This document shows positions 1 to 45,830 of a DNA stretch of 64,000 nucleotides, one piece after another. A model generated the notes under the pieces. The model was not told the origin of the DNA and ran no database searches. It was given only the letters and a program-made list of their open reading frames with translations. The DNA is from Corynebacterium haematomassiliense (GTDB taxonomy: Bacteria; Actinomycetota; Actinomycetes; Mycobacteriales; Mycobacteriaceae), in NCBI RefSeq assembly GCF_013978595.1, contig NZ_JACDTZ010000001.1, positions 868,001 through 932,000 on the forward strand. Reading direction: 5' to 3'. How positions within the stretch are numbered: position 1 is the stretch's first letter; the number at the start of each line of letters is the position of its first letter. The translations under genes and the position numbers were made by a program.

Positions 1-2
1 CC

Positions 3-756
3 GACGCCTTCCGTAAAGGCGGCCCTTTCATCCGCGACGGGAAGGTTGAAACCATCCCTGGGGGATTCGACGCGTCGAAAGTCGCCGTAGGTGCGAGCTT
101 GTACCGGCCGGGCCCTCCCGGATTCGTCCCCAAGGACCTCAACGACGAGATACCTCTTGACGTTAACTCTGTCGACCCTTCCGGTTGGAAACTCTTCGTG
201 TGGGTGAGCGGTTCAGCCATCCGCCCCGCCACCGAAGAGGAACGCGACTATCAGCTTATTCCTTGGACGTTCTATCCACTCGGTTTCTTGGACCTCTGGC
301 TTGAGCAGTACCGCTGCTACCACCTGGGTTTTGACATCCCGACGGATGTAAGCCCGCCAGACGAGGACATCGACCATGGCGCCGAAGAGTCGGAATCGTC
401 GACCGGCCTGAAGATGCGCCGGGTAGAACTCGATGAGTCTGCTGGGGAGCTTGAAGGCCAACACTCGGTCTACCTCCAAGTGGCCGCCGGTTCAGAACTC
501 GATAAAGCAATCGCCGCTAGCGGGCACGAAGCCAACGGCTACTTCCTCGAGGGCGTCGCTCGCTACCTCCAATCGAAGGGCCGGGGTTGATCCCAGCCTC
601 CAGCTCGACCCGGAAGGCGAAGGCATCGGCATCTACGGTGATCCAGCACACATCGACAAGGCCCAGTCTTCTTTCACAGGCATCGCTGAACGACCTGCTG
701 AAATCGCGGAGCTGGTGGAGCGGGCCAAAGCAGCTGGCATCGAAATCGATGACTAG
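3..756 (+). pseudogene. Imm51-like immunity protein with unknown N-terminal region, frameshifted, 5' end outside window
   Basis: The reading frame is open from the window edge and stops at TGA 588-590. The +1 frame then continues the same protein to TAG at 754-756. Skipping one G in the GGGG run at 583-586 joins YLQSKGR to VDPSLQLDPEGEG. The C-terminal half, from about base 414 (ATG, MRRVELDES), has the pattern I associate with Imm51 immunity proteins of polymorphic toxin systems: a GHEANGYFLEGVA block, a DPEGEGIGIYGD block and a final AAGIEIDD. The roughly 137 residues before it (LYRPGPPGF, WKLFVWVSGSAIRP) are not recognised and could be the tail of another gene or domain fused to the immunity part. 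The gap could be a real inactivating indel, a sequencing error, or a sign of phase variation in a G run. Immunity proteins neutralise a cognate toxin, which would lie upstream, outside the window. Confidence 0.5.
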
Positions 757-791: not shown

Positions 792-1256
792 ACTATGCAG
801 CTGCATAGTCAACGAAGCCGAACCAACCTCCCCCGAGGCGAACCAGGCATCGCGAAAAACTATGCAGCTGCATAGCGAATCCACCCCACCAGGCTATGCC
901 GCTGCATAGTGGACGGCAGTGTCGGGACTATGCCGTCGCATAGTGGCATCGGTGCACAAGACTATGCCGCTGCATAGTCAACGAAGCCGAACCAATCTTC
1001 CCTGAGACGGTCCGGCCATCAAGAAAAACTATGCCGCTGCATAGCGAATCCATCCCACCAGACTATGCAGCTGCATAGTCTGGTGGCAGTGTCGGGACTA
1101 TGCCGCTGCATAGCGGGACCGGTCAGCAAGACTATGCCGTCGCATAGTGAACCCGACCCAAGAGACTATGCAGCTGCATAGTCAACGGAGCCGAGGCAAC
1201 CGCCCCTGTGGCTGATCAGCCATCGCAAGACTATGCCGCTGCATAGCGATTCGAGC
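792..1256 (+). repeat. Higher-order ~169-bp tandem repeat carrying the dyads
   Basis: Bases 792-960 and 961-1130 are two diverged copies of one unit. Each has the dyad order long gap (67), 34, 34, 34, and the spacers match in order: tcaacgaagccgaaccaa after the first dyad, cgaatcca(c/t)cccacca after the second, ggcagtgtcggga after the third. An extra monomer follows (1131-1164). A partial third unit starts at 1165 (tcaacggagccgaggcaa) and fades near 1256. The array therefore grew by duplication of a four-dyad block, and afterwards the spacers diverged while the dyad arms did not. Confidence 0.8.
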
Positions 1257-1427
1257 CCTTGCCCGCTCGGTTTGTACGAATTTACATGCGGCAACACTTA
1301 TAAGCTTCTGACCTGCGCCGATAAATCTGGACGCCCGTCCCAATTGTCGACTTTTGCAGGTTTCGTTTAGGTGACTACCCCTACGAATCACGCGAACGGC
1401 AACCCCGAGACTATGCAGCTGCATAGT
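792..1427. repeat. Palindromic repeat array 1 (12 copies of CTATGC-N4-GCATAG)
   Basis: This array fills most of the 687-base stretch without a gene between the immunity gene and the UvrA-like gene. Twelve 16-bp dyads start at 793, 860, 894, 928, 962, 1029, 1063, 1098, 1132, 1166, 1231 and 1411. All have both 6-bp arms intact. The central four bases are AGCT (793, 860, 1063, 1166, 1411), CGCT (894, 962, 1029, 1098, 1231) or CGTC (928, 1132). Start-to-start distances are 67, 34, 34, 34, 67, 34, 35, 34, 34, 65 and 180. Conserved arms with a variable centre suit a dimeric protein-binding site better than an RNA hairpin. Short frames beginning MQLHS arise from the repeat itself and are not credible genes. 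The stretch 1247-1410 has no copy and looks less GC-rich. Confidence 0.93.
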
Positions 1428-1443
1428 CGCCACCGACGACGAC

Positions 1444-3870
1444 CTACGCCGAACGCTCGGCCAGCACCTTCCCGGTTGCAGTTTCAGACTTCGCCAGCTC
1501 GGCGGGGGTGCCGGTAGCCACAACCTGACCACCCTCGGCGCCGGCACCGGGGCCCATTTCGATCACGCGATCGGCTTGCGCGATGACGGACAGGTCGTGC
1601 TCGACCACGATCACGGTTTGGCCAGCGTCGACAAGACTGTTGAGCTCCTTGACCAACAGCGCCACGTCGGCGGGGTGAAGGCCGGTGGTGGGCTCGTCCA
1701 GCAGGTACACGGTGTGGCCCCGGCGCGAGTTGCGGGAGCGCTGCAGCTCGGTGGCCAGCTTGATGCGCTGCGCCTCGCCGCCGGAAAGCTCCGGCGCGCC
1801 TTGGCCCAGGCGCAGGTAGCCCAGCCCCACGGCCTGCAGGGTTTCCACGGCGCGCAGGATCTTCGGTTCGTCGGCGAATACGTCCGCGGCTTCGTCGACA
1901 GTCAGCTCCAGCACCTGCGCGATGGTGAGCCCATCCCAGGTCACCTCGAGGGTCTCGTCGTTGTAGCGCGCGCCGCCGCAGTCCGGGCAGGTGGTGTACG
2001 AGCCGGGCAGGAACACCAGCTCCACCTCGATCTTGCCGGCGCCGCCGCAGGTTGGGCACTGCCCCTGCTTCACGTTGTAGGAGAAGCGCGACACGGTCCA
2101 CTTGCGCCGCTTCGCCTCGTCGGTGCTGGCGAACAGTTTGCGCACGCCGTCGAACAGCCCGGTGTAGGTCGCCAGCGTCGAGCGCGGGGTGCGCCCGATG
2201 GGCTTCTGGGTGATCTGCACAACTCGGCTCACCGCGTCGAAGCCTTCTTGCCTATCGACGGTCCATCCGGCCTCCCCCGCCCCTGCATCACCCGCAGAGT
2301 CGTCCTCTTCCTCGACAACGGTGGACGCGGCGTCGCGGAGCACACCTGCGAGCACGGTGCTGACCAAGGTGGACTTGCCGGATCCGGACACGCCGGCCAC
2401 CGCGGTGAATTGTCCCAGACCAAACGACACGTCCAGCCCCTCAATCGAGCGGGCCGACACGCCGGAAAGGCGCAGTTCGCCGGTGGCGGACCGTGGGGCG
2501 TCGTTAGGCGAAAGTGTCCGGTTCGCCAGCGCCTTCGCTGTGGGCGCGTCGCCGGTGTAGTCGCTGGTGGGGCCGGAGTAGACAACCTCACCGCCGCGCT
2601 CGCCGGCGAGCGGGCCGACGTCCACGAGCCAGTCGGTTTGGGCGACGAGTTCCATGTCGTGTTCGACCAGCAGGACCGAGTTGCCGGCGTCGATGAAGCG
2701 GCGGCAGATGTCCAGCACCGCGCCGCGCTCGGCGGGGTGCAGGCCGGCGGACGGCTCGTCCAGCACATACGCCACGCCGAACAGGCCCGAGCGCAGCTGG
2801 GCGGACAGGCGGATGCGCTGCAGCTCACCGGCGGACAGCGTCGGCGCGGGGCGGTCGAGGCTTAGGTGCGCAAGGCCCAGGTCGAGCGCGGACTGCAGGG
2901 CGGGCAGGATCTGCTTCAGCAACAGGTCCTCGGCCGAACCCTCGGACGGTTCCTGCGCTGCCAGCACCTCATGGACCTGGTCCAGCGGCAGGGCGCCGAG
3001 CTCGTCGATAGGCATCCCCGCGTAGGTGACCTTGAGCGCCTCCGGGTTGAGGCGGCGGCCGTGGCAGGTCTCGCACACGCGCGACTCCATGTAGGACAGC
3101 ACGCGTTTGCGCAGGGTGTCGGACTGGGTCTCGGCGAGCGTGTTGGTCAGATACGACGCCACGGAGCGCCACGTGCCCTTGTAGTTGCGCTGGATTTGGT
3201 CCTCGCCGCGAAGTGGCTTGACGGTGACCACGGGGCGCTCCTCGGTGAACAGGATCCACTCGCGGTCTTCCTTGGGCAGGTCCTGCCAGGGAGAATCCAG
3301 GTCGTAGCCCAGCGTGGCCAGGATGTCGTGGAAGTTCTTGCCGGCCCACGCGCCCGGCCAGGCTTGAATCGCGCCGTCCTCGATGGACAGCGTCGGGTCC
3401 GGCACCATCGACGCTTCGGTGGGCTCGTGCACCACGCCGGTGCCCTGGCACGTCGGGCACATGCCCTCGGGCGTGTTCGGGGAGAACGAGTCGGAGTACA
3501 GCCCCTTCGGGTTGTCGCCCGCGCGCGAGTACAACAGCCGGATGCTGTTGGACAGCGCGGAGACGGTGCCCACGGTCGAGCGCGCGCCTCCGCCGGAGGT
3601 GGACTGCTCCAGCGCCACCGTCGGCGGCAGGCCCTCCACGGAACCGACCTGCGGGTCCACCGCCGAGCCAATCAGGCGGCGGGCGAACGGCGCCACCGAT
3701 TCGAGGTAGCGCCGCTGGCCCTCGCCGTGGATGGTGCCGAAGGCGAGCGAGGACTTGCCGGAGCCGGACACCCCGGTCACCGCGACGAGCGTGCCGCGCG
3801 GGATGTCCACATCCACGTTGCGGAGGTTGTGCAGGTGGGCGTCGCGAACTTCAATTCCGGTTTCAGGCAT
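1444..3870 (-). CDS. UvrA-like ABC ATPase, class lacking the UvrB-binding domain
   Basis: An 808-residue paralogue of excinuclease subunit UvrA. It has two ABC cassettes with Walker A motifs (GVSGSGKSSLAFG near the N-terminus and GVSGSGKSTLV near residue 495), signature motifs (LSAGELQRIRL, LSGGEAQRIKL) and Walker B motifs ending in DEPSAGLHP and DEPTTGLHP. Zinc-type CXXC pairs occur at CPTC, CETC and CPTC...CPDC. After RSTVGTVSALSNSIRLLYSRAGD the chain passes almost directly to the first CPTC. The roughly 130-residue insert that carries the UvrB-binding domain in true UvrA (about 950 residues) is missing. Such short UvrA2/drug-resistance-type proteins act in DNA repair or DNA-drug tolerance. 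ATG at 3870 is preferred over GTG at 3888: GGTGGG precedes it and the gap to the pyk stop becomes 18 bases. Confidence 0.85.
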   Translation of the reverse strand: MPETGIEVRDAHLHNLRNVDVDIPRGTLVAVTGVSGSGKSSLAFGTIHGEGQRRYLESVAPFARRLIGSAVDPQVGSVEGLPPTVALEQSTSGGGARSTVGTVSALSNSIRLLYSRAGDNPKGLYSDSFSPNTPEGMCPTCQGTGVVHEPTEASMVPDPTLSIEDGAIQAWPGAWAGKNFHDILATLGYDLDSPWQDLPKEDREWILFTEERPVVTVKPLRGEDQIQRNYKGTWRSVASYLTNTLAETQSDTLRKRVLSYMESRVCETCHGRRLNPEALKVTYAGMPIDELGALPLDQVHEVLAAQEPSEGSAEDLLLKQILPALQSALDLGLAHLSLDRPAPTLSAGELQRIRLSAQLRSGLFGVAYVLDEPSAGLHPAERGAVLDICRRFIDAGNSVLLVEHDMELVAQTDWLVDVGPLAGERGGEVVYSGPTSDYTGDAPTAKALANRTLSPNDAPRSATGELRLSGVSARSIEGLDVSFGLGQFTAVAGVSGSGKSTLVSTVLAGVLRDAASTVVEEEDDSAGDAGAGEAGWTVDRQEGFDAVSRVVQITQKPIGRTPRSTLATYTGLFDGVRKLFASTDEAKRRKWTVSRFSYNVKQGQCPTCGGAGKIEVELVFLPGSYTTCPDCGGARYNDETLEVTWDGLTIAQVLELTVDEAADVFADEPKILRAVETLQAVGLGYLRLGQGAPELSGGEAQRIKLATELQRSRNSRRGHTVYLLDEPTTGLHPADVALLVKELNSLVDAGQTVIVVEHDLSVIAQADRVIEMGPGAGAEGGQVVATGTPAELAKSETATGKVLAERSA

Positions 3871-3888
3871 GCCCACCAGCGTAACCAC

Positions 3889-38491: not shown

Positions 38492-39382
38492 ATGAACGTG
38501 TTAGTCATCTCAACCGGCGGCACGATCGCCTCCACTGCAAACGCCCGCGGCGCGCTCGTGCCCACCCTCACTGGCGAGGAACTCGTCGACCGCTGCGGCA
38601 CCACTCGCCAGGTGCGCGCGATCGACGTGGCCAGCCTGGACTCTTCGTCCATGGGCTTGGCCGAGATCGACATGTTGCGCGAAACCGTGCGCACTTCGCT
38701 TCTCGACGACTCCGCCTCCCTCGTCATCACCCACGGCACCGACTCCATGGCCGAGACCGCCCTCGCGCTTGACCTCGTCCACGCCGACCCCCGCCCTGTA
38801 GTGCTCACCGGCGCGATGCGCTCCGCCGACCACGCGCGCCCCGACGGGCCTGCCAACCTGCGCGGGGCGATCGAGGTGGCCGCCAGCCGGCGCGACACCG
38901 GCGTGCTCGTCCACTCTGCCGGCGAGACCCTCCCGGCGCGCGGGTTGATGAAGACGCAAACCACCGCCGAGCACGCCTTCACTCTCACCAGCGGCTCGCC
39001 CCTGCCCCGCCCCATGGCGGTGCCTCCCGCGCCACTGGCCGGGTTGAACATCCCCATCATCCGCGCGTGGGCCGGCGCCGACGACGCCCTCATCCGCGCG
39101 CTCGGGCCTATCGACGGGCTCGTCTTAGAAGCCCTCGGTTCCGGCAATGTGTCGGCGTGCATGGGCGGAGCCGTCGCAAAGCTGCTGCGTCGCGGGGTCC
39201 CTGTGGTTGTCGCCACGTCGGTGCCCTACGGCGAGGTGTCGTTCGCGTACGGCGGGGCCGGCGGCGGCTCCACCCTCGGCGATCTTGGCGCGCTGCCCGC
39301 CGGCTACCTCAGCGCCAGCCAGGCCCGCATCGCGCTGGCCACCGCGCTGGCCAGCGGCGTGAACCCGAGCTCACTGTTGTGA
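38492..39382 (+). CDS. Asparaginase (type I/II family)
   Basis: A 296-residue L-asparaginase that hydrolyses asparagine to aspartate and ammonia. The first catalytic Thr is in STGGTIAST, the second triad motif is THGTDSMAETA, and GLMKTQTT supplies the Lys region. No signal peptide is seen, so it is cytosolic. The C-terminal domain includes PIDGLVLEALGSGNVSACM and VVVATSVPYGEV. ATG 38492 is preferred to GTG 38486. Its stop overlaps the end of the convergent polymerase gene by 12 bases. Confidence 0.92.
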   Translation: MNVLVISTGGTIASTANARGALVPTLTGEELVDRCGTTRQVRAIDVASLDSSSMGLAEIDMLRETVRTSLLDDSASLVITHGTDSMAETALALDLVHADPRPVVLTGAMRSADHARPDGPANLRGAIEVAASRRDTGVLVHSAGETLPARGLMKTQTTAEHAFTLTSGSPLPRPMAVPPAPLAGLNIPIIRAWAGADDALIRALGPIDGLVLEALGSGNVSACMGGAVAKLLRRGVPVVVATSVPYGEVSFAYGGAGGGSTLGDLGALPAGYLSASQARIALATALASGVNPSSLL

Positions 39383-40753
39383 GAACCAGTCCTCCCACGC
39401 CAGCGAATCCAACGGGTCGGCCTGCTGGAGCTGCGGGTCGTCCGCGCGCAGACTCTTGATCCTGCCCGGGCCCGTCGCCCGCGTTTCAAACCGCACCGTC
39501 ACCCACCCCTTGCCGGCGCCCTGGACCCAGCCGTGGCCGTAGTCCGGGTGGTAGACGTCCTGAGTCGCGCGCCACACGCCTCGCTCCGGTGCTGACTCCT
39601 GAAGCACCTCCGTATCCAACTGGGTTTCGTGGTCGCTCACCCCGGTTTCGTAGTCCACCGACACCGGCGCCGGCTTCACAATCGCCTGGTCCAGCTCCGG
39701 AAAGAGCACATCCTGCAACGTGTCCTCCAGCCCCGAGTACGACACTCCCACCAACCGGATCGGGCCCACCTCGTCCGGATAGCGCACGATCCGGAAGGCA
39801 GTGGCCAGCAGCGTCTCCGCGTCATCGGTGGCGTACGGCAGCGTCGCCGAACGCGACTCGATGCGGAAGTCCGCCATCCGCAGCTTCACCGTCACCGTTC
39901 GCGCCCCGCGGCCGTCCTTGCGCAGCCTGCGGTGCGACTCCGCAGCCGCCCGCTCCAACGCCGCGTCCACCTCCGGCGGGGTGGTCAGATCCTGCGGGTA
40001 CGTGTGCTCCGAGGAGATCTGTTTCGACTCCGCCCTCGGCGCCACCGGCCGCTCGTCCACGCCCCGCGCCAACCACCACAGCTGCTTGCCCACCGCGCCG
40101 CCGATGGCGATGTCCAGCTCTTTCTCGCTGAGGTTGGCGAGGTCACCGATCGTTTCAATTCCGGCAGCGAGCAGCTTCGATTCCGTCACCGGGCCCACAC
40201 CCCACAGCTCGTTGACCGGCATCGGGTGCAAAATCTCTAGCTGCCGATCGTGCGGGATGACAAACACCCCGTCCGGCTTTGCCCGGCCCGAACCGATCTT
40301 TGCGTATTGCTTTCCCGGACCGGCCCCGATCGAGCTGGGCAAGCCCGTCTCCTCCTTGATGGCTGCGCGCAGCTCGTTCGACCACTGTTCCACATCCTCC
40401 GGGCTCGCCCCGACCAAGTCCTCCGGCTCCATGAACGCCTCGTCGATGGACAGCTGCTCCACCACGTCCACGTGCCTGCCGATTACCTCGAACACCCGCC
40501 GCGACGCCGCCACGTAGACCGGCCTGCGCGGCGCCACTAGCACCGCCTTCGACCCCACCAGGCGCGCCGCCCGGTGCGTCGGCATCGCTGAGCGCGCCCC
40601 GTACTTGCGTGCCTCGTAGCTGGCGCCTGCGACCACGCCGCGGCCCGTTACTCCCGCCACCAGCACTGGGCGTCCTTTGAGCGTCGGCCGGGTCAGCTGC
40701 TCGCAGGAGGCGTAGAACGCATCCATGTCGATGTGCAGCACCCAGCGGTTCAT
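39371..40753 (-). CDS. dinB: DNA polymerase IV (Y family), with C-terminal extension
   Basis: A 460-residue translesion polymerase. The catalytic carboxylates are in VLHIDMDAFYASCEQ and QLSIDEAFME. The helix-hairpin-helix GVGPVTESKLLAAGIETIGDL and the little-finger domain (FRIESRSATLPYATDD) follow. About 90 residues beyond the usual end (VWRATQDVYHPDYGHGWVQG ... WFSQQ) form an extra beta-rich module; such an extension seems common in corynebacterial DinB. Start ATG 40753 gives MNRWVLHIDMD, with GTG 40759 as alternative. No clear SOS box is seen immediately upstream. Confidence 0.92.
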   Translation of the reverse strand: MNRWVLHIDMDAFYASCEQLTRPTLKGRPVLVAGVTGRGVVAGASYEARKYGARSAMPTHRAARLVGSKAVLVAPRRPVYVAASRRVFEVIGRHVDVVEQLSIDEAFMEPEDLVGASPEDVEQWSNELRAAIKEETGLPSSIGAGPGKQYAKIGSGRAKPDGVFVIPHDRQLEILHPMPVNELWGVGPVTESKLLAAGIETIGDLANLSEKELDIAIGGAVGKQLWWLARGVDERPVAPRAESKQISSEHTYPQDLTTPPEVDAALERAAAESHRRLRKDGRGARTVTVKLRMADFRIESRSATLPYATDDAETLLATAFRIVRYPDEVGPIRLVGVSYSGLEDTLQDVLFPELDQAIVKPAPVSVDYETGVSDHETQLDTEVLQESAPERGVWRATQDVYHPDYGHGWVQGAGKGWVTVRFETRATGPGRIKSLRADDPQLQQADPLDSLAWEDWFSQQ

Positions 40754-40796
40754 GTCCACCACTGTGCACCACCGGGACCGCCTAGTTCCAATCTCC

Positions 40797-42095
40797 TCAC
40801 CCGGCGAACGAATCTCCGGTGACGTACTCCATCCGCCTCGGCTGCTTTCGATTACGCGAGACGAACCGGGCACCGTTTTTGAACGTGAAGAACAAGTCGC
40901 TCCCCTGGCGCTCGATGGTGATCACTCCGTGGCTCACCTGGGAGTGGCAGCTCGAGCACAGCGGGATCAGGTTGTCCAAGTCGGTCATGCCTCCGTGCTC
41001 CCACTCCTTTATGTGGTGCATCTCTATGAAGCGCCTATGCGAACATCCAGGCATGGCGCACTGATACCCCCAGATCGCGAGCAGTGCCTGCACCTGGCCG
41101 TCTGTAGCGAACCTCCGCGAACGTCCGACGCGGATAGTCAGTCCCGTGTCATCCAGCAAGTGCAAACGCACCATCGCATTAGCGAGGTAGCTGCGCACGT
41201 CCTCAGAACAGGCCGAGCGGTTTTCCGGCATCCAGCACTGACCTTGCTGATTCACCATGAGGTTAACCTGCACGCCAGGGCTACGAAGCGGACTCCTTGG
41301 GTTTGCACGGACCATATCGATCATTGACAACAACGCCCCGTACACATCCTGTTTTTCTGGAGGCCCGTAGCGCGACACCGAACGCGCGATGTCGTCCATG
41401 GTGATCTTCGTGCGCTTGCGTGGAGCGCGGTCCTGCTCCGACGGGACGGCGTCTTCGGCGGCAGCTGCGTCGTCGATAAGCTTCTGCACCTTCTCCGAAT
41501 CCTGCAGATCATCCGGGTCCACATCCTCGAGACCGAAACTGGCCAACTGCGCCACCTTCAGCGCAGTCAGGAGCTTTTGGCCGGCTACCGCCGGAAGCCT
41601 CGCCTCGAAGGCGAGCATGCCGTCGTCGCACTCGCGGGCGCGAGCGAAAGGTTCAGTCGGGTCCTCCTCTTTGGGCCTTGCCCCGGCGAGCAAAAGCTGA
41701 AGATCAGCAAACGACATGCTCAGCGCGAGCTCGACGTACTGCTCCTCGTTGTACTCATCCAGGTACCGGAGAAGGAAGCGAACTGTCGAATACGGCATCA
41801 CCCCCGATTCGAATGCGTCGTACAAACGCCTGAACTTCCTCAGCCCCCGCGCCACGCGCACATACTCGAATGCTGTGGCCTCCGGGAGGTTGAGCTCGGT
41901 ACGCAACCACGTTGCCGTCGACCTCTCCCCGTACTGCTCCGCGAGCCCTTGTTCGTCGAACTGTCCCACCGCATCGAGCATTAGCGCCCGGTGGTGATTG
42001 GCCGACAATTGATTGCATTTGATCTGGTCCTCGAGCACCTCTGCCGACAGACCACCCGTTCGGCCTTCCGTACGTTCGTCCACCGCAATTGTCAT
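40797..42095 (-). CDS. DUF222 / 13E12-repeat HNH endonuclease-like protein
   Basis: A 432-residue protein of the large actinobacterial DUF222 family. The helical N-terminal domain (about residues 20-300) contains ANHHRALMLDAVGQFDEQG and WLRTELNLPEATAFEYVRVA. The C-terminal HNH nuclease has CAMPGCSHRR, EMHHIKEWEHGG, TDLDNLIPLCSSCHSQV, with the zinc-type cysteines and catalytic His. Members occur in multiple copies in actinobacteria and are suspected to be mobile, but their role is unproven. ATG 42095 has GAGGGG upstream. Its upstream region carries a near-consensus promoter and the second dyad array. Confidence 0.9.
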   Translation of the reverse strand: MTIAVDERTEGRTGGLSAEVLEDQIKCNQLSANHHRALMLDAVGQFDEQGLAEQYGERSTATWLRTELNLPEATAFEYVRVARGLRKFRRLYDAFESGVMPYSTVRFLLRYLDEYNEEQYVELALSMSFADLQLLLAGARPKEEDPTEPFARARECDDGMLAFEARLPAVAGQKLLTALKVAQLASFGLEDVDPDDLQDSEKVQKLIDDAAAAEDAVPSEQDRAPRKRTKITMDDIARSVSRYGPPEKQDVYGALLSMIDMVRANPRSPLRSPGVQVNLMVNQQGQCWMPENRSACSEDVRSYLANAMVRLHLLDDTGLTIRVGRSRRFATDGQVQALLAIWGYQCAMPGCSHRRFIEMHHIKEWEHGGMTDLDNLIPLCSSCHSQVSHGVITIERQGSDLFFTFKNGARFVSRNRKQPRRMEYVTGDSFAG

Positions 42096-42127
42096 GGTTA
42101 ATCCCCTCACTCATGAACATTGACACC

Positions 42128-42156
42128 TTTATAGAACGCTCATGTGTTCGAGTCAA
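42128..42156 (-). promoter_or_regulatory. Near-consensus promoter of the DUF222/HNH gene
   Basis: Minus strand: TTGACT (42156-42151), 17-base spacer, TATAAA (42133-42128), 32 bases before the ATG at 42095. The spacer begins with GAACACATGAGCGTTC, a GAAC-N8-GTTC dyad that could hold an operator. This is the clearest sigma-A-type promoter in the window. Confidence 0.7.
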
Positions 42157-42237
42157 GGGTTTTGCAGAAAATGTTCACTGAAGTGGACAATGCATGCGGC
42201 TTAACTAATTTTGAGCGTCGAACATAGAAGCCTTTCA

Positions 42238-42566
42238 CTATGCAGCTGCATAGTGGGTGTCTCCCCGGAGCGCCCGCTTGAGCCGCGCGAAACTATGCCG
42301 CTGCATAGTGGGTGTGTCCCCAAAGTTGGTCAGAAAACTATGCAGCTGCATAAGCGGTTCCACCCATACGCCCCCACACACGCCCCGAAAGACTATGCAG
42401 CTGCATAGTGGATACCCCGCTCCGCACACCCCGGGAGACTATGCCACTGCATAGTGGGTGTCTACCCAAAGTTGGTCAGAAAAACTATGCAGCTGCATAG
42501 TCGCCTCCCCCTCGGACGCCCCACACGACCCCCCACGACCACGCCAGAAACTATGCCGCTGCATAG
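42238..42566. repeat. Palindromic repeat array 2 (7 copies of CTATGC-N4-GCATAG)
   Basis: Fills most of the 555-base stretch without a gene between the HNH gene and ileS. Dyads start at 42238, 42293, 42338, 42393, 42439, 42485 and 42551. Central bases are AGCT (42238, 42338, 42393, 42485), CGCT (42293, 42551) or CACT (42439). Only 42338 has a changed arm (GCATAA). Start-to-start distances are 55, 45, 55, 46, 46 and 66. Two spacers are nearly the same (TGGGTGT.T.CCCAAAGTTGG then TCAGAAAA, at about 42307-42337 and 42453-42484), again showing block duplication. The arms are the same as in array 1, about 41 kb away. Confidence 0.93.
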
Positions 42567-42598
42567 TGTCCACAAACATGCTGACCCTGCTCAGCGCG

Positions 42599-42633
42599 AA
42601 GAAAGGAGCCCCACTCTGCACGAGTGAGGCTCC
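42599..42633 (-). terminator. Rho-independent terminator of ileS
   Basis: Arms GGAGCCCCACTC (42605-42616) and GAGTGAGGCTCC (42622-42633) pair over 12 bp with one mismatch around TGCAC. On the minus strand the stem is followed by TTTCTTC. It lies 18 bases after the ileS stop and separates ileS from the dyad array. Confidence 0.8.
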
Positions 42634-42650
42634 AGCCTAACCTTCCAGCC

Positions 42651-45600
42651 TTAGCTGTCCTTCCGAACAGTGGCGGTCACGCCGTCGACGATGTCGTGGC
42701 CCTCGACGGGCTCGGTGACCACGTCGAAGGACGTCGCCAGGGTCTCGGCGGCGATGTGGTCCGCGTGGGTGCGGGCCCACGCTTCCCTCTCAGCCGGCAC
42801 GGCCAGCACCACGGCGATGCGGTCGGAGACCTCGAAGCCCTCGTGCTTGCGGGCGTCCTGCAGGCCGCGGATCACGTCGGCGGCCCAGCCCTCGGCCTCG
42901 AGTTCCTCGGTGACCTCGGTGTCGAGGACGACCAGGCCGACGGTGCCGTCGTCGGCGTCGACACGCGCGGTGCTGTCCGGGTTCTCGGCCACCAGACGCT
43001 CGGTGTAGAGCTCCGGGGTGAGCACGATGTCGCCGTCGACAACCACGTCGTCGCCGCGTCGCTCGTAGTTGCCGGCCTTGACATTCTTGATGGCGCGCTG
43101 CACGTCTCGGCCCAGCGACGGGCCAGCCACCTTCGCGTTGACCACGACTTCGAAGGATCCGGCGGAGTCAACGTCGTCAGTCAAAACGACGTCCTTCACG
43201 TTCACCTCGTCGCGGATGGTGGAGCGGAACGGCTCAAGCTTGGCGGAATCCGGCAGCGCGACGGTGAGCTTCGGCAGCGGCAGGCGGTTGCGCAGCTTGT
43301 TCGCCTTTCGCACTGACGACGCCGCAGAGCAGACCGCGCGGGTCGCATCCATCGCGGCGACCAGGTCAGCGTCGGCCGGCAGCTCGGTCGCCTGCGGGTA
43401 ATCCGTCAGGTGCACCGAACGGCCGCCGGTAAGCCCGCGCCAGATCACCTCGGAGACGTACGGAAGCAGCGGCGCCACCGCGCGGGAGACGACCTCGAGC
43501 ACCGTGTAGAGGGTGTTGAACGCCTCCGGGTGCGCCTCCTGGCCCTCCCAAAAACGGTCGCGGGAGCGGCGCACGTACCAGTTGGTCAACGTGTCGGCGT
43601 AACGGCGCACCTCGTCGCAGGCGTCGGCGATGCGCGTGTCGTCCAGCGCCTCCCCCACTGCTGCGACCAGGTCGTGCGTCTTCGCCAGGATGTAGCGATC
43701 GAGCACGTTGTCCGAATCCACGGACCACTGCGCGTCCTCCGAGGAGTACAGCTGCAGGAACGTGTAGGCGTTCCAGATAGGCAGCAGCGCCTGGCGCACG
43801 CCCTCGCGGATGCCCTGCTCGGTGACGATCAGGTTGCCGCCGCGCAGGATCGGAGAGGACATGAGGAACCAGCGCATAGCGTCGGAGCCGTCGCGGTCGA
43901 AGACCTCCATCACGTTCGGGTAGTTGCCCTTCGACTTGGACATCTTCTGCCCGTCCGAGCCCAGCACGATGCCGTGGGCGACAACCTTCTTGAACGCGAC
44001 GCGGTCGAAAAGCGCGGTGGACATGACGTGCTGGAGGTAGAACCAGCCGCGCGTCTGGCCGGAGTACTCCACGATGAAGTCGGCCGGCTGGCGGGTCTCA
44101 AACTCTTCGCGGTTCTCAAACGGGTAGTGGTACTGCGCGAACGGCATGGAGCCGGACTCGAACCAGCAGTCCAGCACGTCCGGCACGCGGCGCATCATGG
44201 ACTTACCGGTCGGGTCGTCCGGGTTCGGTCGCACCAGCTCGTCGATGTGCGGGCGGTGCAGGGACTTCGGACGAGTGCCAAAGTCGCGCTCCAGCTCATC
44301 CAGGGAACCGTAGACGTCCACGCGCGGGTACTCCGGGTTGTCGGAGACCCACGCCGGCACCGGCGAGCCCCAGTAGCGGGTGCGGGAGATGTTCCAGTCG
44401 CGCGCGCCCTCAAGCCACTTTCCAAACTGGCCGTCGCGGATGTGCGACGGGATCCACTCGATCTCCTGGTTCAGCTCCACCATCCGGTCGCGGAACTCGG
44501 TGACCTTCACAAACCAGGCCGGCAGCGCCATGTAGATCAGCGGTTCGCCGGAGCGCCAGGAGTGCGGGTAGGAGTGCACGATGGTCTGGTCGCGCAGCAC
44601 GCGGCCCTTGGCGCGCAGGTCGCGGATGATGTCGCGGTTGGCGTCGAAGACCAGCTTGCCCTCGTACTCCGGCACCAGCGAGGTGAACTTGCCGTCGGCG
44701 TCGACGGGGATGACCAGGTCGATGCCGTATTCCTGGCAGGTGAGCATGTCGTCCTCACCGAAGGCGGGTGCCTGGTGGACCACGCCGGTGCCGTCCTCGG
44801 TGGTCACGTAGTCCGCGTTGAGGATCATGAACGCGTTGTCGTGGTCGCGGAAGTAGTCGAAGACCGGCTCGTATTCCAGGCCCTCCAGCTGCGCGCCGAG
44901 ATAGGTGGCTACGACCTCGTACTCGCCGAGCTCCTTCGCATAGGCGCCGAGCAGATTCGTCGCCAAGAGCAATTGCTTATCGACGAAACCTTCGGCCCCG
45001 TCCGCACCGACCTTAACCAACGAGTACTCCACCTCGGGGTGGACCGCGAGGGCCAAGTTGGACGGCAAGGTCCACGGGGTCGTGGTCCAGGCGATAGCGG
45101 AGGCGTCGTGAAGCTCAGGGTGCTCGGCCCAGGTCTTCTCCGCCGCGTAGCCTGCGCGCCCGCCTGTAAACGGCAGGGTGACGGTAACGGTGGGGTCCTG
45201 GCGGTCGCGGTAGGAGTCGTCCAGGCGGGTCTCCTGGTTGGACAGCGGAGTGTGCTCGGCCCAGGAGTACGGCAGGACGCGGAAGCCCTGGTAGATCAGG
45301 CCCTTGTCGTAGAGCTCCTTGAACGCCCACATGACGGACTCCATGTACTCCGGGTCCATGGTCTTGTAGCCGTTTTCGAAGTCCACCCAGCGAGCCTGGC
45401 GGGTGACGTAGTCCTCCCACTCGCCCGCGTAGTGCATGACGGACTTGGCGCAGTACTCGTTGAACTGCTCCAGGCCCATGTCCTCGATCTGGGCTTTGTC
45501 GGTGATGCCGAGCTGCTTCTCCGCCTCCAGCTCTGCGGGCAGGCCGTGGCAGTCCCAGCCGAAGACGCGCGGGACGTGGAAGCCGGACATGGTGCGGAAA

Positions 45601-45830
45601 CGCGGCACGATGTCCTTGACGTAGCCGGTGAGCAGGTGGCCGTAGTGCGGCATGCCGTTGGCGAATGGAGGGCCGTCGTTGAACACGTACTCCTCGCAGC
45701 CCTCGCGCTGCTCTAGGGAGGCCTTGAACGTGCCGTCCGTGTTCCAGTAGTCGAGGACGACGCGTTCCATCTCCGGGAAACGGTCGCTGCCGCCGGTCAT
45801 GTCAACCTTGGGGTAGACGTTGCCAACCAT
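42651..45830 (-). CDS. ileS: Isoleucyl-tRNA synthetase
   Basis: A 1059-residue class I synthetase that charges tRNA-Ile. The HIGH-type motif is in [10 protein letters not shown] and the KMSKS motif is [12 protein letters not shown]. The CP1 editing domain (about residues 190-410) has [12 protein letters not shown] and the [15 protein letters not shown] segment. The anticodon-binding domain starts near [14 protein letters not shown]. Length and motifs fit the longer eukaryote-like IleS found in many actinobacteria. AAGGAG lies seven bases before ATG 45830 and is part of a T-box switch in the leader. Confidence 0.96.

Follow-up and report, generated by a model that had tools for sequence, protein, structure and literature searches.

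DUF222-like/HNH nuclease genes and their cognate palindromic dyads: candidate small mobile elements in Corynebacterium

Introduction

In the REP/RAYT systems (repetitive extragenic palindromic sequences and their REP-associated tyrosine transposases, also known as TnpA-REP), a nuclease gene has palindromes on its flanks, further copies of which are scattered through intergenic regions, and free-standing HNH homing endonucleases are encoded by stand-alone HNH genes, present in several copies and in many related genomes. The locus discussed here, which has traits of both, is found in a stretch of 64,000 nucleotides from Corynebacterium haematomassiliense (contig NZ_JACDTZ010000001.1, positions 868,001 to 932,000; hereafter, the window), and comprises a DUF222-like/HNH nuclease gene and two arrays of a short palindromic dyad. 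These dyads are probably the DNA partner of stand-alone DUF222-like/HNH nucleases, with the gene and its dyads constituting a small mobile element and the gene-less arrays being satellites of it.

The 13E12/REP13E12 family of mycobacteria is the third system to be considered. REP13E12/HNH/DUF222 sequences are listed among repetitive elements in one study (PMC10589994), and another counts 87 gene-conversion events in REP13E12 loci, which it ranks with the most recombined of the tuberculosis bacillus and describes as sequences that "lack defined biological function" (PMC13061034). No report tying DUF222/HNH genes to palindromes was retrieved by a full-text search, which left most subscription journals outside its range, and the accessible portions of PMC5217627, PMC2267715, and PMC8477406 hold no such link.

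The Dyad Arrays of the Home Genome

The features on which the argument is built are the following, in window coordinates:

42237..42567, unstranded: array 2 (the "home" array), seven dyads with start-to-start spacings of 55, 45, 55, 46, 46, and 66
792..1427, unstranded: array 1 (the gene-less array), twelve dyads, spaced mostly 34 or 67
40797..42095, minus strand: DUF222-like/HNH nuclease open reading frame (ORF) of 432 aa, presumed dyad partner; HNH PF01844 E=1.3e-10, DUF222 PF02720 E=0.0021, below the cut-off

Array 2 is located between the 5' end of the HNH ORF, whose start is 141 bp away, and the 3' end of ileS. It is composed of seven 18-bp dyads of the form ACTATGC-N4-GCATAGT, starting at 42237, 42292, 42337, 42392, 42438, 42484, and 42550. 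The original prediction of seven copies with common arms, one arm being altered in one of them, proved correct (both arms are perfect in six copies, and the right arm of copy 3 reads GCATAAG), and only its coordinates, 42238..42566, which span the 16-bp core, have been extended. Array 1 is bounded by the end of a plus-strand ORF on one side and the 3' end of a UvrA-like gene on the other. The dyad is indeed all that the two arrays hold in common, as had been claimed, since the best local score between their spacers is 9 versus a shuffled mean of 10.6. Within each array, however, spacers are duplicated (810/979 in array 1 and 42310/42456 in array 2). Array 1 also bears a higher-order duplication of about 169 bp (window 792-1182), in which the spacer pairs 810/979 and 877/1046 are near copies. 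Among the 19 dyads, all ten with an asymmetric central tetranucleotide are oriented alike on the plus strand.

When both strands of the window were scanned with the pattern ACTATGC-N3-TGCATAGT, allowing up to 3 mismatches, 38 strand-matches were obtained versus a mean of 0.20 (largest 2) in shuffled sequence. A third cluster lies beyond the window, 29 kb past array 2 (G000:C1:939690-940155, where G000 is the home genome), in the gap separating the genes for a protein kinase and a class-II DAHP synthase. The dyad pattern gives 25 strand-matches in the whole 2.58-Mb home genome, all of them within these three clusters, and 15 of the 21 dyad copies of this genome stand away from the HNH gene. Other repeats are also present in the intergenic region of the third cluster (L051:7690-8600, equivalent to G000:C1:939690-940600), among them blocks of TTTTGTAAAACCCGGCG...GAGTTTTACAAAAACTGGG and the repeat TTTTGTACGAATCGACAAAAC; a part of the latter, TTTGTACGAAT, recurs in array 1.

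A bias of the dyads toward gene ends, a check proposed with the original prediction, is apparent in eight genomes, where convergent gaps account for 15 of the 26 dyad-bearing gaps versus 25 of 279 gaps overall, orthologous sites being counted repeatedly. This location between convergent 3' ends, together with the hairpin that the dyad could form in RNA, would suit transcription terminators or RNA hairpins, but such a role is extremely improbable: the dyads of array 2 are not followed by a T-run, a terminator scan of 41900-42700 gives two sites, neither of them on a dyad, the home arrays lie upstream of the gene start, and no RNA family matches anywhere in the window at the Rfam gathering threshold.

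Pairing of the Nuclease Gene with the Dyad

The gene and the dyad are very probably paired. An HNH ORF homologous to that of the window (40797-42095) is found just downstream of the dyads in the ten home-group genomes tested, and also in the separate lineages G256, G078, and G134. A genus-wide protein search (E<=1e-20) detected homologues in 70 of 242 Corynebacterium genomes, and other lineages of the gene adjoin dyads of the same form, including ACTCTGC-N4, ACTCCGC-N3, AGTCCGC-N3, AGTGCGC-N4, AGTATGC-N4, ATTCTGC-N4, TGTCCGC-N3, and more. For four dyad types, 606 of the 618 copies counted in the 242 genomes fall within the 70 gene-bearing ones, and the gene is present in 50 of the 51 genomes that hold at least two copies of one dyad type, G062 being the exception. 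The p-values of this co-occurrence ignore the kinship among genomes and, as genomes and orthologous sites are related, they are too small.

A set of 93 genes was drawn from the matches listed (30 best loci, 60 picked for length or copy number, and 3 with known dyads). A perfect dyad, defined by 7-bp arms, a loop of 3-4, and an inner GC, and located up to 600 bp upstream or 400 bp downstream, is present near 56 of them, or near 53 of 90 without the three genes added for their known dyads. Upstream dyads amount to 108, versus 1.51 expected and a maximum of 6 in 100 resamples. As a baseline, 29 of 709 stretches upstream of predicted genes in the array-bearing regions hold a dyad, and 15 of these carry the arrays' own arms. 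The DUF222/HNH gene had been pointed out as a putative accessory neighbor of the array; its presence stands, while its merely accessory status does not, given that it is likely the partner of the dyad.

The dyad arms also co-vary with the protein. In a set of 54 genes (restricted to arms whose third base is T or G, one gene dropped by hand), protein identity and arm difference are correlated with a Mantel r of -0.491 over 1410 cross-genome pairs, which weakens to -0.405 for pairs below 70% identity and to -0.308 below 55%, with 0 of 1000 permutations as strong in each case. When the nearest protein from another genome is less than 70% identical, arm and loop are identical in 26 of 54 genes, versus 5.7 expected, and below 60% identity the mean arm distance is 1.37, under that of every permutation (minimum 1.72). 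More than one dyad type is found in 11 of the 12 genomes with at least two typed genes, although the types of G147 differ by the loop only. From these sequence comparisons, it is the protein type, and not the genome, that the arm sequence tracks.

This behavior bears on the proposal that the dyads are REP-like repeats, or resemble miniature inverted-repeat transposable elements (MITE), moved by another enzyme, so that the HNH gene would merely be a frequent neighbor. The dyads are intergenic, palindromic, and dispersed, as REP sequences are; nevertheless, such an explanation is quite improbable, as the arm sequence follows the lineage of the HNH protein and the presence of the dyad follows the gene. 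Moreover, the Y1 family, the only transposase family searched for, is absent from 14 of the 15 genomes tested, including the home genome, and in the remaining one (G134) it is represented by a single locus, split into two pieces and containing a stop.

It could also be argued that the dyads are operators through which the DUF222-like protein, or another regulator, controls its own gene, the distant arrays being decoys or sites of a regulon. The median distance from the end of the nearest upstream dyad to the predicted start is 104 bp (quartiles 85-134, n=50), and the spacing within ACTATGC arrays is of a helical type (at 11.0 bp the vector strength is 0.57, with orthologous arrays counted repeatedly), both in line with such a role. 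However, dyads of the AGTGCGC type are also located at the far (3') end of the element, dyads often lie between convergent gene ends, and up to 68 exact copies accumulate in one genome, making operators an unlikely explanation for the dyads as a whole. These objections are compatible with autoregulation as a second role, which the dyads may have.

Conservation and Dispersal in the Genus

Dyads are found at the same intergenic sites, at the end of the UvrA-like gene and beside ileS, in seven relatives with fetched stretches (G002, G041, G126, G088, G145, G016, and G071), whose mean nucleotide identity is 78-91%. In an alignment of the ileS site from four species, the dyads are kept, the spacers vary, and whole dyad-plus-spacer units are gained or lost. 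The dyad is, as originally proposed, both dispersed and arrayed, and its arrays occupy a number of distinct intergenic sites with orthologues in related species. These sites do not fit the alternative then considered, in which the arrays would be confined to one mobile segment and the dyad would not be conserved independently. Only one of the examined clusters, a single dyad in G256, is inside a predicted gene.

The arrays of the home species group are confined to about 71 kb and similarly spaced, by about 40.8 and 29.1 kb, as would be expected if they were chromosome-organizing sites in the manner of parS, matS, or Noc sites, marking a single chromosomal region. Nevertheless, these distances are explained by conserved synteny, copies are scattered across the chromosome in G256, G147, G125, and G104, and the exact ACTATGC core is absent from 223 of the 242 Corynebacterium genomes. 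A chromosome landmark is therefore very improbable, and the idea was dropped because other species scatter the dyads. In G125, 17 of 19 ASTCTGC copies are not directly upstream of a typed gene, and two are. G134 and G222 hold 12 and 6 exact copies, mostly single, of one dyad with a fixed loop (CTATGCGCGCGCATAG), whereas loops vary elsewhere.

A two-copy dyad pattern was found in 13 stretches of named genomes, seven of them from Corynebacterium; the other six come from one Bacillota bin (three contigs), one Lachnoclostridium bin, and one further bacterium (two stretches). The Bacillota bin derives from goat omasum; L074, L077, and L081 are its three contigs with the two-copy pattern, CTATGC-N4-GCATAG. 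Array 1 has no match among plasmids and phages, and the one viral contig with a pattern match, a hairpin pair with T after the stem, looks unrelated.

Element Ends and Mobility

The AGTGCGC type has dyads on both sides of the gene, with outer edges 1.33-1.56 kb apart. Copies of this type at the same, orthologous site align through their flanks, over 4.4-6.1 kb. By contrast, copies at four different sites, compared in 43 cross-site pairs with 172 ends (matches of at least 150 bp), share no homology passing the dyad by more than 10 bp at any end; 46 ends are no more than 10 bp away from its outer edge, and the remaining 126 stop short, inside the dyads, as the copies diverge. Pairs involving G124C59 were excluded from these 43, as a flank is common to G124C59 and group B; with them, 8 of 216 ends extend more than 10 bp past the dyad and 62 lie within 10 bp. 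In the closest pairs, the ends coincide with the dyad edges exactly or almost exactly, as in G190, which has AGTGCGC copies at three of the four sites and whose copies C15 and C20 show offsets of 0, 1, 0, and 1 bp.

Defined ends shared between different sites have thus been observed for the AGTGCGC type and not for the ACTATGC type of the window. Dyads of the former type are very likely the ends of a mobile element. For the latter, the same role is likely, and is proposed by analogy, because dyads are found only on the 5' side of the HNH gene in the window.

Near-identical copies of the gene within one genome also point to mobility. They occur in G248 (98% and 95% to one of three), G256 (99.9%), and G162 (95%), and G236 has five copies that are 89-96% identical. 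The duplicated unit starts at a dyad in G248 and G162, and ends at a dyad in the G256 pair. The two copies of G162 are 94.8% identical to each other, and one of them is 94.3% identical to its G161 orthologue, the flanks of which are 95-98% identical; these values weakly suggest an exchange between copies. The other G161 locus was considered as a possible empty site with joined flanks, and was rejected, as it holds a decayed, internally deleted gene whose dyads remain. At a solitary-dyad locus of G235, a second, imperfect dyad is found 1.4 kb away, with no HNH ORF between them.

The Nuclease Family and Its Putative SOS Control

The HNH domain (PF01844) is detected in all 19 members of alignment A1 (E<=0.001), where the HNH residues H360, H361, N375, and H384 and the four cysteines C346, C351, C380, and C383 are invariant. 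Cleavage of the dyad by this protein is plausible, given that the HNH residues are intact. DUF222 (PF02720) is recognized in 11 of the 19 at the same threshold (best 2.1e-9), with the match of the window protein being weak and below the curated cut-off. In its HNH region, the protein is similar to IscB (NCBIfam E=3e-9, with a score of 36 bits that is well under the cut-off of 175; PDB 9k2z, E=1.7e-5). An AlphaFold model built with four close sequences was unusable (pLDDT 37.9). In many of the actinobacterial genomes that were searched, DUF222 genes number at least ten. Among 121 genomes of the order, the A1 subfamily profile has matches at E<=1e-30 in four, the home genome included, and in viral contigs the profile of the protein gave two distant, partial matches only.

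LexA control of 13E12-family genes in the tuberculosis bacillus is described in two articles (PMC5005354 and PMC4181829). In Corynebacterium, LexA-box-like sites (TCGAAC-N4-GTTCGA, up to 2 mismatches, within 300 bp upstream) precede 41 of the 93 genes versus 18 of 410 control genes (p=1e-20), three of the 18 being the HNH gene itself. Outside Corynebacterium, such sites precede 19 of 55 canonical DUF222 genes versus 0 of 55 resampled, and six of these genes (L216, L251, L252, L260, L267, and L268) have a perfect box. Of the 11 listed orthologues of the window gene, nine carry a LexA-like site, with 2-4 mismatches and at a distance of 34-61 bp ahead of the predicted start. SOS-box-like sites are a trait of the group, and for the window gene, whose own site is weak, such control is possible.

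Genes around the Arrays

The remaining features are as follows, again in window coordinates:

39371..40762, minus strand: dinB-like (impB/mucB/samB) gene, the next gene downstream of the HNH gene, on the same strand
42136..42151, minus strand: weak LexA/SOS-box-like site TCGAACACATGAGCGT, 3 of 12 positions mismatched, between the HNH gene and array 2
42651..45830, minus strand: ileS, its 3' end adjoining array 2
1444..3888, minus strand: UvrA-like gene, 814 aa, its 3' end adjoining array 1

Genes for dinB-type polymerases are typical SOS genes. The HNH gene and the dinB-like gene (window 39371-42095) lie on the same strand with a 34-bp gap, and may form one operon. Both ileS and the UvrA-like gene had been correctly named in the original prediction, whereas the Imm51-like gene that it placed beside array 1 was not confirmed: the three nearest predicted ORFs on the left side of this array have no Pfam match (E<=0.01), and the fourth has a SUFU domain. 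In the home genome, these four genes lie at L050:17907-20000 and window 1-590. Similar ORFs are found beside array 1 in G088 and, in part, in G002, and are not found there in G041, G126, G016, G145, or G071.

Proposed Mechanism and Significance

The pairing, the co-variation, the dispersal, and, for one dyad type, the dyad-bounded homology are supported by computation. In the model proposed from them, each nuclease lineage would have its own dyad, mostly of the form NNTNNGC-N3/4-GCNNANN, and the gene and its dyads would make up a mobile element of 1.3-1.6 kb where both ends are seen, with the dyads serving as its ends and landing sites, and gene-less dyads, such as those of array 1, as satellites. 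The N-terminal domain is expected to bind the dyad, and the HNH domain to nick or cut it, possibly upon SOS induction; repair would then copy the gene and its dyads into other dyad sites and multiply the dyads locally. This cleavage followed by homing-like copying is somewhat favored. More tentatively, the elements may represent a new class of mobile element, in which a damage-induced stand-alone HNH nuclease recognizes a palindrome that is also terminus, target, and satellite repeat, and in which the co-evolution of protein and palindrome has diversified specificity, so that several independent pairs can coexist in one genome.

Several observations weigh against this model. With respect to the pairing, a perfect dyad is missing from the vicinity of 37 of the 93 genes, although imperfect dyads adjoin some of these, including the genes of G236. 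Among the 56 dyad-bearing genes, the arms depart from the family form in at least two (G228 and G000:C1:1786374), and when the nearest protein is less than 60% identical, it has the exact dyad for no more than 10 of the 54 genes (mean of the permutations 5.7, maximum 15). G062 holds two ACTATGC copies, yet no gene at E<=1e-20, and the co-occurrence is partly built in, as the patterns derive from gene flanks and the 606 copies include the home arrays. The 55 canonical DUF222 loci outside Corynebacterium have 20 upstream palindromes versus 18.1 expected, which is no excess, so that the dyad partnership belongs, as far as tested, to this Corynebacterium subfamily. Regarding the ends, the 43 cross-site pairs derive from only four insertion sites, two G104 pairs show an isolated short match outside the dyads when matches down to 40 bp are admitted, and the opposite end of the duplicated unit is not at a dyad in G248, G162, or G256. 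Finally, no pre-insertion site was found among 20 fetched loci with AGTGCGC dyads, and the solitary-dyad loci match the empty site of no known element.

If the model is true, this part of the DUF222 family gains a cognate DNA site and, with it, a testable substrate for binding, nicking, and cutting. At least 12 protein-dyad pairs with different arms would constitute a natural panel from which a recognition code could be read and nucleases with new specificities obtained. A class of dispersed Corynebacterium palindromes would also be accounted for, and REP-like repeats would have a second, non-RAYT route.

Comparison with Known Systems

The resemblance to IscB, from elements of the IS200/IS605 type, is confined to the HNH region. 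With free-standing HNH homing endonucleases, the Corynebacterium genes share a stand-alone HNH gene, multiple copies, and presence in many related genomes; in contrast, their presumed site is a multicopy perfect dyad, retained at one side of the gene or at both, and cleavage and homing are presumed. As in REP/RAYT systems, a nuclease gene has flanking palindromes, and dispersed intergenic palindromes are found as well, but the enzyme is an HNH nuclease and the protein has no Y1 domain.

The 13E12/REP13E12 genes have a DUF222 and HNH architecture, which the Corynebacterium genes probably share, and likewise exist in several copies per genome. According to the corresponding articles, they undergo gene conversion between copies (PMC13061034), are controlled by LexA, and have "characteristics of mobile elements" (PMC5005354). 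The 55 canonical DUF222 loci outside Corynebacterium, a comparison in which the mycobacterial repeats were not included by name, differ in having no palindrome excess. The Corynebacterium genes, on the other hand, form a divergent subfamily with cognate palindromes.
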